From Oscillibacter sp. (GTDB lineage Bacteria; Bacillota; Clostridia; Oscillospirales; Oscillospiraceae), in contig JALCRQ010000002.1 of NCBI GenBank assembly GCA_022652655.1, positions 1 through 64,000 on the forward strand: DNA of 64,000 nucleotides, in the 5' to 3' direction. The notes below the pieces were generated by a model that made no database searches, had not been told where the DNA came from, and worked only from the letters and a program-made list of their open reading frames with translations. Numbering within the stretch: position 1 is the first letter of the stretch; each line of letters starts with the position of its first letter. The position numbers were made by a program, and so were the translations under genes. This document shows positions 15,410 to 21,245 of this stretch, in pieces.

Positions 15410-15486
15410 GGAGGCTTAGCTCAGCTGGTTAGAGCGCCTGCTTCACACGCAGGAGGTCGACAGTTCGAGTCTGCCAGTCTCCACCA
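15410..15486 (+). tRNA. tRNA-Val (CAC), CCA encoded
   Basis: CCTGC-TTCACAC-GCAGG anticodon arm; GGAGGCT/AGTCTCC acceptor. Confidence 0.95.
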
Positions 15487-15530
15487 AGAAAAGTCCTGAA
15501 ACCGCAATGGTTTCAGGACTTTTCTTTTTT
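15486..15530 (+). terminator. Strong terminator hairpin directly after tRNA-Val
   Basis: AAGAAAAGTCCTGAAACC-gcaat-GGTTTCAGGACTTTTCTT-TTTT. Confidence 0.9.
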
Positions 15531-15739: not shown

Positions 15740-16503
15740 TTACTGTGCATCTCCTGCTTGAGCAGTTTTTAGAGTCTTTTTCAGCGTTTCTGGACTGGTG
15801 TGGTCATAGATCCTAGTCAGCATTTTCAGGTCACTGTGCCCTAGCAAACGCGCCACCATGTACGGATCTATTCCCAGAGCAATCCACAGGGTTGCTCTGG
15901 TGTGTCGCAACTCATGCACAGACAGCTTCGGAATGTCCGGATACTCCGCACAGACCGCCTCCATAAAAGGCTTATACACCCGGTTGACCCAATTGTTGGG
16001 TTGATAGGGTTTTCCCTCAGGACTATGAAATATGTACTCGGTCTTAACAGTCCGCTTGCCCACCACAATCTCCTGGGGCAATGCCTTCAGTCGATTTAAG
16101 AGCTCCTGATCCATAAGGGGGATGCTCCGTTGGCGATACTTATTTTTCAAGCCATTGCTTTCAGAGACCCATTTCCCCTGATCCTCCGAGTGATAAAACA
16201 CCAGCCCCTGATTGATGTGCAGCAGCGCATGATCGGTGTCTACATCTTCCCACCGCAAGCCCAGCAGCTCACTGCGGGATATGCCTGTTTCCATCGCCAG
16301 CATAATCGACAATCCATTTTCACAGGCCTTGGCCATCGCGTACACCTGGTCATACTGCTCCTGTGTGAATGTGTGCTTCTCTGTTACCGTCTCGTATTTT
16401 GGCATCCGGAGGCTTTTTACCATAGGACTGCTGCTGCAAAGTTGGTTATCCACCCCAGTTTGAAAAATCAGACTCAGCGCATTAAAGTCTTTTTTAATGG
16501 TGT
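15740..16503 (-). pseudogene. Tyrosine recombinase/phage integrase, catalytic domain retained, N-terminal part missing
   Basis: ORF contains SRSELLGLRW, HELRHTRAT, LLGHSDLKMLTRIYDH (R..HxxR..H..Y). Frame extends to TIKKDFNALSLIF near 16500, then runs into symporter sequence with no arm-binding domain. Sits beside tRNA-Val. Confidence 0.8.
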
Positions 16504-17811
16504 GTGCTGCTGGGCGTAGGTGTGCTGTATACGATTATCTCGGGCTGCATTCAGGTTCGCCGTTTTGGCTACATTATGAAGCGGACTCTGCTGCGCCCGT
16601 TTTTCCACGGGGATAGACAGGCTGCGGAAAAAGGCACCGTCACTTCGTTTCAGGCCCTGTGTACGGCGCTTGCCTCCTGCGTGGGTTCCGGCAATATCAT
16701 CGGCGTATCCACAGCCTTAATTGCCGGGGGACTGGGCGCGATTTTCTGGATGTGGGTCGCAGCCTTTGTGGGCATGGCGACAAAATACGGGGAGATCGTG
16801 CTGGGAGTCATGTACCGTCGGCGGGATTCGGAGGGCCAGTATGTGGGCGGCCCCTTCTACTATATGGAGGACGGGCTACATCTCAAATGGCTGGCCGGCC
16901 TGTGCGCAGCCTTCATGGTCACACAGATTATCGGCGGAAACTTTATCCAGTCCAACGCCGTCAGCGGTGTTCTGCACGATCAGTTTCATATGCCGCCTCA
17001 GGCGACTGCCATCGCTCTGGTGGTCTTGATCTTTGTCATCAGCGCAGGCGGCCTGAAACGGCTGACGAGAGTGGCCCAGAGGGTAACTCCCTTTATGGCA
17101 ACCGTTTATATTGTCGGCGGTCTTCTGATTATTCTCTTTAATATTACGAAGCTTCCGGGTGTGATTGTTTCCATTTTTACGGAGGCATTTGGCCTGCGCG
17201 CGGTGGGCGGCGGTGCGCTGGGAGCCATGACGATTGCCATGCAAAAGGGCATCGCCCGGGGTCTGTATTCCAATGAGGCGGGCGAAGGTTCGGCTCCGGT
17301 TCTGCACTCCTCCGCGGATGTCAGACACCCGGTGGAGCAGGGAATCCACGGCGTCACAGAGGTGTTTGTGGATACTTTCGTCATCTGCACCATCACGGGC
17401 CTCGTAATCGGCGTCACCGGCGTTCTGGACGGTGCATACTCCGGAAATATCATGGCAATCAAGGCATTTGCCTCCGTTTGGGGGCCTCTGGGTTATGTTG
17501 TCTCGGTGTCTCTGCTGCTGTTTTGCTTTACGAGTCTCATGTGCCAGTGGTATTTTGGCTTTGTGGGACTGAACTATCTCTTTGGCTTTCGTGTCGCCGA
17601 TAAATTCAAGTATATCTTCCCCTTCTTCTGTGCGATCGGTGCGCTTCTAAAGCTGGAAATGGTCTGGACCATCCAGGACATTGTGCTGGCGCTCCTGACG
17701 ATCCCCAACCTGCTGGCGCTGATCCTGCTGGCGCCTAAGGTGCGCAAGGCGACGAAGGAGTACTTTTCTTCCGACCTCTACCGCATTTCCAGACAGCAGC
17801 TTTCCCACTGA
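16504..17811 (+). CDS. AGCS-family sodium:alanine/amino acid symporter, apparently 5'-truncated
   Basis: LLGVGVLYTIISGCIQVRRFGYIMKRTL... ALASCVGSGNIIGVSTALIAGG; QKGIARGLYSNEAGEGSAPVLHSSA. Usual N-terminal segment before first TM absent; only GTG at 16504 available. Confidence 0.85.
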   Translation: MLLGVGVLYTIISGCIQVRRFGYIMKRTLLRPFFHGDRQAAEKGTVTSFQALCTALASCVGSGNIIGVSTALIAGGLGAIFWMWVAAFVGMATKYGEIVLGVMYRRRDSEGQYVGGPFYYMEDGLHLKWLAGLCAAFMVTQIIGGNFIQSNAVSGVLHDQFHMPPQATAIALVVLIFVISAGGLKRLTRVAQRVTPFMATVYIVGGLLIILFNITKLPGVIVSIFTEAFGLRAVGGGALGAMTIAMQKGIARGLYSNEAGEGSAPVLHSSADVRHPVEQGIHGVTEVFVDTFVICTITGLVIGVTGVLDGAYSGNIMAIKAFASVWGPLGYVVSVSLLLFCFTSLMCQWYFGFVGLNYLFGFRVADKFKYIFPFFCAIGALLKLEMVWTIQDIVLALLTIPNLLALILLAPKVRKATKEYFSSDLYRISRQQLSH

Positions 17812-17812
17812 G

Positions 17813-18196
17813 ATCGGAACCCTCTTAAATTCTGGCAGCTCCACCAGTATTCTGGCCGGCACCACCGCCGGCGTGGATCCGGTGATGCACCGGTTTTTCC
17901 TGGAGGAGAAAAAGGGCACCATGCTGCCCCGGGTGGCCCCGGAGCTCAGCGTCGACACCTACTGGTACTACAAAAGCGCCCACACGGTGGACCAGACCTG
18001 GTCCGTCCGGGCGGCGGGCGTCCGGCAGCGGCACATCGATCAGGCCCAGAGCGTCAACCTATATATCACCAACGACTACACCCTCCGGCAGGTGCTGAAC
18101 CTGTACCTGCTGGCCTGGGAGCGGGGCGTCAAAACCGTCTACTACGTGCGCAGCAAATCCCTGGAGGTGGAGGAATGCGAAAGCTGTTCCTCCTGA
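17813..18196 (+). pseudogene. nrdA: Class I ribonucleotide reductase alpha subunit, C-terminal remnant only
   Basis: In-frame IGTLLNSGSSTSILAGTTAGVDPVMHRFFLEEKKGTMLPRVAPELSVDTYWYYKSAHTVDQTWSVRAAGVRQRHIDQAQSVNLYITNDYTLRQVLNLYLLAWERGVKTVYYVRSKSLEVEECESCSS*; catalytic barrel missing; precedes nrdB. Confidence 0.85.
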
Positions 18197-18224
18197 TGGA
18201 GGGAAACGGAAAGGAAGAATCGGT

Positions 18225-19265
18225 ATGGAGCTTACACGCAGGCCGCTGTTCAATCCCGGCGGCGACACGGAGGTCCGCGACCGCAGGATGATCGGCGGCA
18301 ACACCACGAATCTCAACGATTTCAACAACCTGAAATACCCCTGGACCAGCGACTGGTACCGCCAGGCCATGAACAACTTCTGGATTCCTGAGGAGATCAA
18401 TCTGGGCCGGGACGTAAAGGATTACCCCCGCCTCCCCGCCGCCGAGCGGAGAACCTACGACAAGATTCTCAGCTTTCTCGTGTTTCTGGACTCCATTCAG
18501 ACGGCCAACCTCCCGGCGGTGGGCGAATACATCACCGCCAACGAGGTAAACCTGTGCCTCACTATCCAGAGCTTTCAGGAATGTGTTCACTCCCAGGCGT
18601 ACAGCTATATGCTGGACACCATCTGCTCCCCCACGGAGCGCAGCGACATCCTCTACCAGTGGAAAAACGACGCCCATCTGCTGCGGCGCAACACGTTCAT
18701 CGGCGATCTCTACAATGAGTTTCAGCTCAAAAAGGACGAGCGCACCTTTCTGCGGGTGCTGGTGGCCAACTATATCCTGGAGGGCGTGTACTTTTATAGC
18801 GGCTTCATGTTCTTCTACAACCTGGGCCGAAACGGGAAAATGCCCGGCTCCGTGCAGGAGATCCGCTACATCAACCGGGATGAAAACACCCACCTGTGGC
18901 TGTTCCGCAGCATCCTGCTGGAGCTCCGGGAGGAGCGGCCGGAGCTCTTTTCCCCGGAGAACGCAGAGATGATCCGGGGAATGATCGACGAGGGCGTCCG
19001 GCAGGAGACGGAGTGGGGCCGGTACGTCATCGGCGATGAGGTGCAGGGGCTCAACACCGCCATGGTGACGGATTATATCCGGTATCTGGGGAATCTGCGC
19101 TGCTCCTCTCTGGGCCTGGGTACCCTGTACGAGGGGTATGACCGGGAGCCGGAGAGCATGCGCTGGGTCAGCCAGTACGCCGACGCCAATCTGGTAAAAA
19201 CCGACTTCTTTGAAGCCAAATCCACCGCCTACGCCAAATCCGCCGCGCTGGTGGACGACCTTTAA
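18225..19265 (+). CDS. nrdB: Class I ribonucleotide reductase beta subunit
   Basis: FLVFLDSIQTANLPA, SFQECVHSQAYSYML (metal ligands plus radical Tyr position), ILEGVYFYSGFMFF, RDENTHLWLF. Confidence 0.95.
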   Translation: MELTRRPLFNPGGDTEVRDRRMIGGNTTNLNDFNNLKYPWTSDWYRQAMNNFWIPEEINLGRDVKDYPRLPAAERRTYDKILSFLVFLDSIQTANLPAVGEYITANEVNLCLTIQSFQECVHSQAYSYMLDTICSPTERSDILYQWKNDAHLLRRNTFIGDLYNEFQLKKDERTFLRVLVANYILEGVYFYSGFMFFYNLGRNGKMPGSVQEIRYINRDENTHLWLFRSILLELREERPELFSPENAEMIRGMIDEGVRQETEWGRYVIGDEVQGLNTAMVTDYIRYLGNLRCSSLGLGTLYEGYDREPESMRWVSQYADANLVKTDFFEAKSTAYAKSAALVDDL

Positions 19266-19417: not shown

Positions 19418-20500
19418 TTACTGATTGTATCCGGGCCGGTATGCCCCGGCCACCCAGCCTGCGGGCCTTCCCCGCCGCATGACGGCGCCGCCGTTGTCGT
19501 CGGAGGAGAGGGACGTGTTGCCCTCAACGGTCACAAGGTCGCCGCCGGGCAGCACCTGCTCCACAATGCCCACGTGCCGAATCACCTTTCCCCCGAAGTC
19601 CATCAGCGCGATGTCACCGGGCCTGAAGTCCCCCGTCACCCACTGGCCGTGGGCCTTGGCCCAGCCGGCAAGGGTGCCGCAGCTGGCGGTCTTGACGGGC
19701 AGCGGCAGCCCCGCCCGGGCGAACACCCACCAGACGAACACCATGCACCAGGGATAGGCCGCGCCGGAGACGGGGCGGCCGTAGTAATCGTCGTTGTACT
19801 TGACGCGGTTGCTCCCCGGGGGAGATTCTTTGACGCCGATCTCCCCCGCCGCCGCAGCCAGCACCCGGGCCCGCTTCCGGCTGTTTTCGTCCGGCTGCTC
19901 CGCCGGATGCCGCACCCACACGCAGATCCAGTGCTGCACCTTCCGGGCGGAGGACCGGACGACGGTTCCGGAAAAATCGCACTGGCTGGAGGCCCCGCCG
20001 TCCAGCATCACCGCGCTCTCCCAGCCCGCGGCGGCCAGATCGTCCCGGAGGCCCTCCGGCGTCCGGGCGGCGGCGCTGCCGTCCCGGGTGCAGTACAGGG
20101 CCAGGCGGCCCTGCTTGAGTCCGATGGCGCTGCGCCCCCGCTTTCCGCCCTGGCCGGAATCATAGGTCAGCTTCGGGAGCTTTTTCCCGCCGGCGATCAG
20201 GGTCGTGCAGGCGATGAAATTCGCCTTTTGAGAGGTCTTGACGTTCTCCATCGTCAGATCCGGCCCGGTATCCCAGGCGAAGCCCAGGACGTTGTATCCG
20301 GCGTTTTTGAGCACAACTCCGTCCGCCTTGAGCCAGCAGTTCACCGCGCCGGTTTTGAGATCGTAGAGCGTCCCGTTGAGAAGATAGTCCGCGCCGGTTT
20401 CCGCTTTGACCTGCCGGAGGGTCTTTTTTCGATCCGTGACATGGAGGGTTATCCGCTCCACCGTGTCCATGGGGATGGTCAGCGCCGCAAAATCAGCCAT
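19418..20500 (-). CDS. Phage-type endolysin: phosphodiester glycosidase (NAGPA-like) domain plus CHAP amidase domain
   Basis: RGRSAIGLKQGRLALYC...VMLDGGASSQCDFSG (NAGPA-like); VKYNDDYYGRPVSGAAYPWCMVFVWWVF...DFRPGDIALMDFGGKVIRHVGIVEQVLPGGDLVTVEGNT (CHAP). Confidence 0.85.
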   Translation of the reverse strand: MADFAALTIPMDTVERITLHVTDRKKTLRQVKAETGADYLLNGTLYDLKTGAVNCWLKADGVVLKNAGYNVLGFAWDTGPDLTMENVKTSQKANFIACTTLIAGGKKLPKLTYDSGQGGKRGRSAIGLKQGRLALYCTRDGSAAARTPEGLRDDLAAAGWESAVMLDGGASSQCDFSGTVVRSSARKVQHWICVWVRHPAEQPDENSRKRARVLAAAAGEIGVKESPPGSNRVKYNDDYYGRPVSGAAYPWCMVFVWWVFARAGLPLPVKTASCGTLAGWAKAHGQWVTGDFRPGDIALMDFGGKVIRHVGIVEQVLPGGDLVTVEGNTSLSSDDNGGAVMRRGRPAGWVAGAYRPGYNQ

Positions 20501-20678
20501 TGCCGCCGCTCCCCTTTACCGCCTGCGTTCCGAAATAGAACGCGATGACCACGGTGAACACCGTGAGAAACTGCTCCGCCGAGACCATTTTCACTACAGC
20601 CATATACGAAAAGACCACCGCCAGCAAAATGGTCACAATCGATTTGACATCCACCAGTCTGCAAATTTTTTCCCGCAT
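20493..20678 (-). CDS. Phage holin-like protein
   Basis: MREKICRLVDVKSIVTILLAVVFSYMAVVKMVSAEQFLTVFTVVIAFYFGTQAVKGSGGNG: two TMs, overlaps endolysin start. Confidence 0.75.
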   Translation of the reverse strand: MREKICRLVDVKSIVTILLAVVFSYMAVVKMVSAEQFLTVFTVVIAFYFGTQAVKGSGGNG

Positions 20679-20692
20679 CCGCCCTTCTCCTT

Positions 20693-20995
20693 TCAATGAA
20701 GCCCCGGGCAGCCGCACAGCACCCAGGTAAAAAATGCCGCGGCCGCCGCGTAAATAAGCCGGTTGACCAAGCCGTCCCACCGCCGCCCGGGCCGCGCCTC
20801 CATGAGATCCACCTTGCCCGCCAGCGCGTTGACGCTGCGGGCCATGCCGTCCTGCTTGGTGGCCATGACCTCCACCGCCGTGGCCAGCCGGTTCACCGCC
20901 GCGCTGGACTTTTCGGCGTTGTCCATCCGATGCTTCAGGGATTTGATCTCGTGGCCGTGGCCCTCCAGGGCCACCGCGATCTGTTCTTCCGTCAT
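20693..20995 (-). CDS. XhlA-like (hemolysin/holin accessory) protein
   Basis: MTEEQIAVALEGHGHEIKSLKHRMDNAEKSSAAVNRLATAVEVMATKQDGMARSVNALAGKVDLMEARPGRRWDGLVNRLIYAAAAAFFTWVL: heptad-rich N-term, single C-terminal TM, adjacent to holin. Confidence 0.65.
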   Translation of the reverse strand: MTEEQIAVALEGHGHEIKSLKHRMDNAEKSSAAVNRLATAVEVMATKQDGMARSVNALAGKVDLMEARPGRRWDGLVNRLIYAAAAAFFTWVLCGCPGLH

Positions 20996-21245
20996 CCTAT
21001 CGCCTCCGCTTTCAAAAGGTGCCGGCAAAGCCGGGCCGTTTGCACGGATTTGTGCACAGGGCGGATGAGCGGCGGGCACATTTATGATCTCCGCCGGCTG
21101 CCGCCTTTACGAAACCCGCCGGTAAAATTTTACGGGCCCGTATATGGAAAACGGTTCCTCCGAATGCTACAATACTCTTATGAGAACACAATGCGGGTTT
21201 TCGCCGCCTGGGCGGCGATTTCTCCCGATGGAAAGGAAGTTGGGG

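Follow-up and report, generated by a model that had tools for sequence, protein, structure and literature searches.

The closest described counterparts of the locus analysed here are the class I ribonucleotide reductase alpha subunits (NrdA) of the NF009028/PRK12364 type, and ordinary truncated pseudogenes of the kind left when an integrative element sited at a tRNA gene decays. With the former, the locus shares a gap-free C-terminus with a YY dyad and a CESC end, but it lacks approximately 740 residues at the N-terminus, among them the core of the catalytic barrel and the regulatory region. As in the latter, a tRNA gene, a broken integrase, a foreign fragment and a broken neighbour stand in a row, but no second attachment site has been found and the sequences show no decay yet. 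A literature search on truncated nrdA or orphan NrdB yielded nothing directly matching. The locus lies in a window of 64,000 nucleotides from Oscillibacter sp. (the whole stretch of DNA analysed, taken from a contig of 122,626 bases), in an assembly of 1.80 Mb and 63 contigs with 94% completeness, and its features follow one another along the window as listed in the table. In our opinion, with a probability of about 0.6, nrdA was once functional and lost most of its length in a recent local rearrangement beside a tRNA-Val integration site. The nrdA stub does not represent a new function; it is a broken gene of the ordinary kind or else the product of an assembly join.

Features of the locus around the nrdA stub (window coordinates)
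Feature	Position	Strand	Evidence
tRNA-Val (cac)	15410..15486	+	ARAGORN; third in a Met-Glu-Val cluster
Tyrosine integrase, C-terminal part only	15740..16501	-	Pfam Phage_integrase; 81% DNA identity to G014
AgcS-type alanine:cation symporter, ~22 N-terminal residues missing	16502..17811	+	TIGR00835, 417 bits
Junction sequence, from symporter stop codon to nrdA homology	17812..17836		No match in G025
nrdA 3' stub, last 119 codons and stop	17837..18196	+	83% identity to NrdA 739-859 of G025
nrdB, intact	18225..19265	+	NF007184 equivalog; alignments with solved R2 chains

Every profile and alignment places the stub at the extreme end of the alpha subunit. Of the 523 positions of the Pfam family Ribonuc_red_lgC, the match covers only 452-523 (E 6e-23), and of the 842 positions of NCBIfam NF009028 only 723-842, while the 859-residue NrdA of a congener (G025) is matched from residue 739 onwards, its C-terminus being aligned gap-free with the 119 residues of the stub. 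Homology to full-length NrdA begins with SSTSILAGTT at 17837, the DNA match to G025 starting at 17836. Both the radical-transfer dyad and the redox cysteines typical of a functional NrdA are kept (KTVYYVRSKS...ECESC), as seen in the alignment to G025 and to PDB 7agj, whereas a complete catalytic barrel with active-site residues is missing. An earlier note on this DNA had assigned 17813-18196 to the last ~125 residues of the protein; the assignment to the alpha tail and the CESC redox-type end stand, but the length has to be reduced to 119 residues, since 17812-17836 is junction sequence. Its statement that the catalytic and allosteric parts were gone is borne out, and the remainder of the gene was not found elsewhere in the assembly. 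As the core of the active-site barrel is missing, the stub, judged from its sequence, cannot be a reductase. Moreover, its first in-frame start is a GTG at 17873, inside the conserved region, with no ribosome-binding site apparent ahead of it.

The integrase and the symporter upstream of the stub are themselves incomplete, which makes three broken genes in the patchwork after tRNA-Val. The integrase fragment corresponds to about residues 127-382 of a 382-residue relative (a full-length relative is located at L113:3661-4809), and its DNA match to the intact, 382-residue integrase of the congener G014 stops at 16501; in the rest of the assembly only remote integrases, and not the missing N-terminal part, were found. 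The symporter reading frame (16504-17811) starts inside the first membrane segment, while that of its best match found, a Fusobacterium protein with 50% identity, has about 22 more N-terminal residues and a similar C-terminal end. No second copy of the symporter was found in the assembly, the paralogues of the same genome reaching only ~38%, and searches of 295 genomes from the order (threshold E 1e-150) and of 399 from the phylum (E 1e-130) gave no match. Its third-position GC content (GC3) is 0.68, compared with 0.88 for the nrdA tail, 0.84 for nrdB and 0.84-0.85 for groEL and pyk. The symporter fragment is thus foreign, while the host-like GC3 of the tail and of nrdB suggests that the nrdAB operon had long been resident in the host. 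The previous idea that an unrelated symporter had replaced nrdA is therefore only partly correct: a symporter does lie upstream, but a simple replacement does not fit, since both symporter and integrase are truncated and the locus forms a patchwork whose two breaks are separated by 1.3 kb.

As regards the integration site, the same tRNA Met-Glu-Val cluster occurs in congeners, and in one of them (G013) another integrase reading frame follows it directly (L127:8570-10876). Several congener contigs stop just past tRNA-Val. Given this second integrase and these contig ends, an integration hot spot is suggested, and tRNA-Val is likely to be the integrase attachment site in the genus. A repeat of the tRNA-Val end, which would mark the far end of the element, was sought on the far side and not found. 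The pyruvate kinase neighbourhoods of the congeners differ between species and speak for neither reading. Directly after tRNA-Val, a perfect 18-bp inverted repeat (15486-15526; AAGAAAAGTCCTGAAACC / GGTTTCAGGACTTTTCTT) is probably a transcription terminator.

As to when the break arose, the tail is unchanged at all 61 sites that are conserved in at least 95% of the homologues, so that the relaxed selection expected of a truncated pseudogene is not observed. Relative to G025, dN/dS is ~0.14 in the tail and ~0.12 in nrdB; for the integrase fragment it is about 0.07 relative to G014. In a neutral simulation, the chance of so clean a tail was ~6% at 2% divergence and 1% at 3%. Since the tail is undecayed, the cut would be either recent, with roughly 2-3% neutral divergence as the upper limit, or an artefact of assembly that is absent from the living genome; the earlier impression that the loss looked recent is in agreement with all three kinds of data.

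Downstream, nrdB is an intact class I beta subunit gene. The protein (346 residues) is of full length, scores 543.5 bits against the NF007184 equivalog cut-off of 310 and is 79% identical to the NrdB of G025, and its ATG is preceded by a Shine-Dalgarno-like AAGGAAG. Alignment to the solved R2 chains 6zjk and 7ail showed D89, E119, H122, E186, E220, H223 and Tyr126 to be intact, residues which, by reference to E. coli R2, we take to be the diiron ligands and the radical tyrosine, as had already been noticed from the motifs. Among 80 nrdB homologue loci from public genomes (L033-L112), nrdA lies upstream in 79. Some of these genes are complete, some lack only the first ~100-130 residues of the query, and others are interrupted by the end of a contig, so that relatives have a longer gene at the homologous position. 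A free-standing tail was found in 0/80, and a natural short nrdA family was not seen in these loci; neither was any relative found among them with an nrdA naturally starting where the stub does. The exception (L083) has no nrdA in the 10.4 kb around nrdB, which is next to feoB and metK; in this Lachnospiraceae MAG (Lapin-005 bin77), the full-length nrdB (L083:4995-6038) is situated between feoB and a DNA methylase-like reading frame.

The rest of the assembly provides no other source of a class I or class II enzyme. The stub is the sole match in the 1.8 Mb to the barrel family, which covers class II as well, and the full-length NrdA of G025 used as query finds only the stub and a weak N-terminal match beside the NrdD gene. 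No second nrdA and no NrdJ were thus found in the assembly, which lends no support to the suggestion that another nrdA might exist; from the forced reliance on NrdD or NrdJ that had been put forward, NrdD remains, being complete and of full length in the same assembly. In fact, NrdA was matched in only 1 of 36 congeners (G025), NrdB, among the congeners scanned for it, again only in G025, and NrdD in 12 of the 13 genomes scanned. Members of the genus therefore usually do without the class I enzyme, and reliance on NrdD, the anaerobic enzyme, is normal.

These data can be brought together in the following scheme. A mobile element would have entered after tRNA-Val, and one deletion or illegitimate join, with its break at 16501/16502, would have removed the start of both the integrase gene and the symporter gene, which point away from each other. 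Another join, which we place after this one, would then have fused the 3' flank of the symporter into nrdA (break within 17812-17837), with the loss of ~740 codons. With neither the core of the active-site barrel nor the regulatory region in the stub, nrdB would be left intact but without a catalytic partner, and dNTPs would be supplied by NrdD; the likeliest activity of the orphan NrdB is none and, given a real loss, its gene would be expected to decay eventually. Such a loss would be tolerable because NrdD is present and NrdA is absent in 35/36 congeners.

The competing explanation, less probable in our view although a serious one, is that of an assembly or library chimera, in which a foreign 1.3-kb symporter fragment bridges two true ends and the living cell has a complete nrdA. 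Two mid-gene breaks so close together, a fragment with no close relative in the genus, the order or the phylum at the thresholds used, its deviating GC3 and the lack of decay in the truncated nrdA and integrase sequences would fit a chimeric contig as well; moreover, neither junction was seen at any other locus and no relative matched across the joins. The exact junction patterns had no match in viral contigs either, which tells little. The two close breaks around a foreign fragment and the lack of decay count against a rearrangement, as does the missing tRNA-Val repeat. Nevertheless, the contig is 122 kb long, and no other contig end carries the 5' part missing from nrdA or from the integrase, although short contigs may have been discarded. 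Furthermore, no sizeable shared sequence able to drive a k-mer misjoin is apparent at the joins, to judge from the relatives that show the true continuation, and in MAGs misassembly is said to occur less often than mis-binning does (PMC8201837). An Illumina adapter at the join was also considered, nine bases matching (AGATCGGAA at 17811), but the match was not counted because the tenth base does not agree. For the rearrangement itself, intact relatives fix the position of both truncations to the base or almost to the base, and G013 has another integrase that uses the site behind tRNA-Val. On balance, we consider a real, recent rearrangement to be likelier than a chimeric assembly.

A very improbable alternative is that the 119-residue tail has been retained as a functional peptide, for example as an NrdB-binding or thiol-redox protein. 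Its frame is open, all 61 conserved sites are unchanged, the YY dyad and CESC are kept and an intact nrdB adjoins, but recency accounts for the conservation equally well, the neighbouring integrase fragment is equally undecayed, and the first in-frame start has the shortcomings described above. With no free-standing tail in the 80 loci, this option, which had been raised in the earlier note, found no positive support. Its more specific form, in which the translated tail would protect or regulate the orphan NrdB in an anaerobe, is more improbable still.

If the rearrangement is real, the locus would show a class I ribonucleotide reductase shortly after it was lost, in a genus that has this oxygen-dependent enzyme as an occasional extra to NrdD, apparently acquired horizontally; its reach beyond class I loss in the genus is small. 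Should it prove an artefact, it would serve as a reminder that claims of gene loss in draft assemblies need read support at the joins. As for the acquisition, nrdAB seems to move between gut anaerobes, since families and phyla are intermixed in the nrdB tree, where the window and G025 do not form a pair. In this tree (L033-L112), families of Bacillota are mixed with Actinomycetota (Eggerthellaceae, Collinsella, Olsenella), together with single Spirochaetota and Pseudomonadota MAGs, a mixture due to transfer among gut anaerobes or, for some rows, to mis-binning.

Downstream of nrdB, on the minus strand, a set of phage-type lysis genes of mostly host-like composition was observed (19418-21079), comprising an endolysin (phosphodiester glycosidase and CHAP), a small holin-like reading frame and an XhlA-like one. 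The possibility of a phage-borne nrdAB, which these genes prompted, was rejected: viral nrdB matches were few (the best 72%) and phage records gave only short weak matches, while bacterial genomes reached up to 82%, and the composition of the nrdA tail and of nrdB is host-like.
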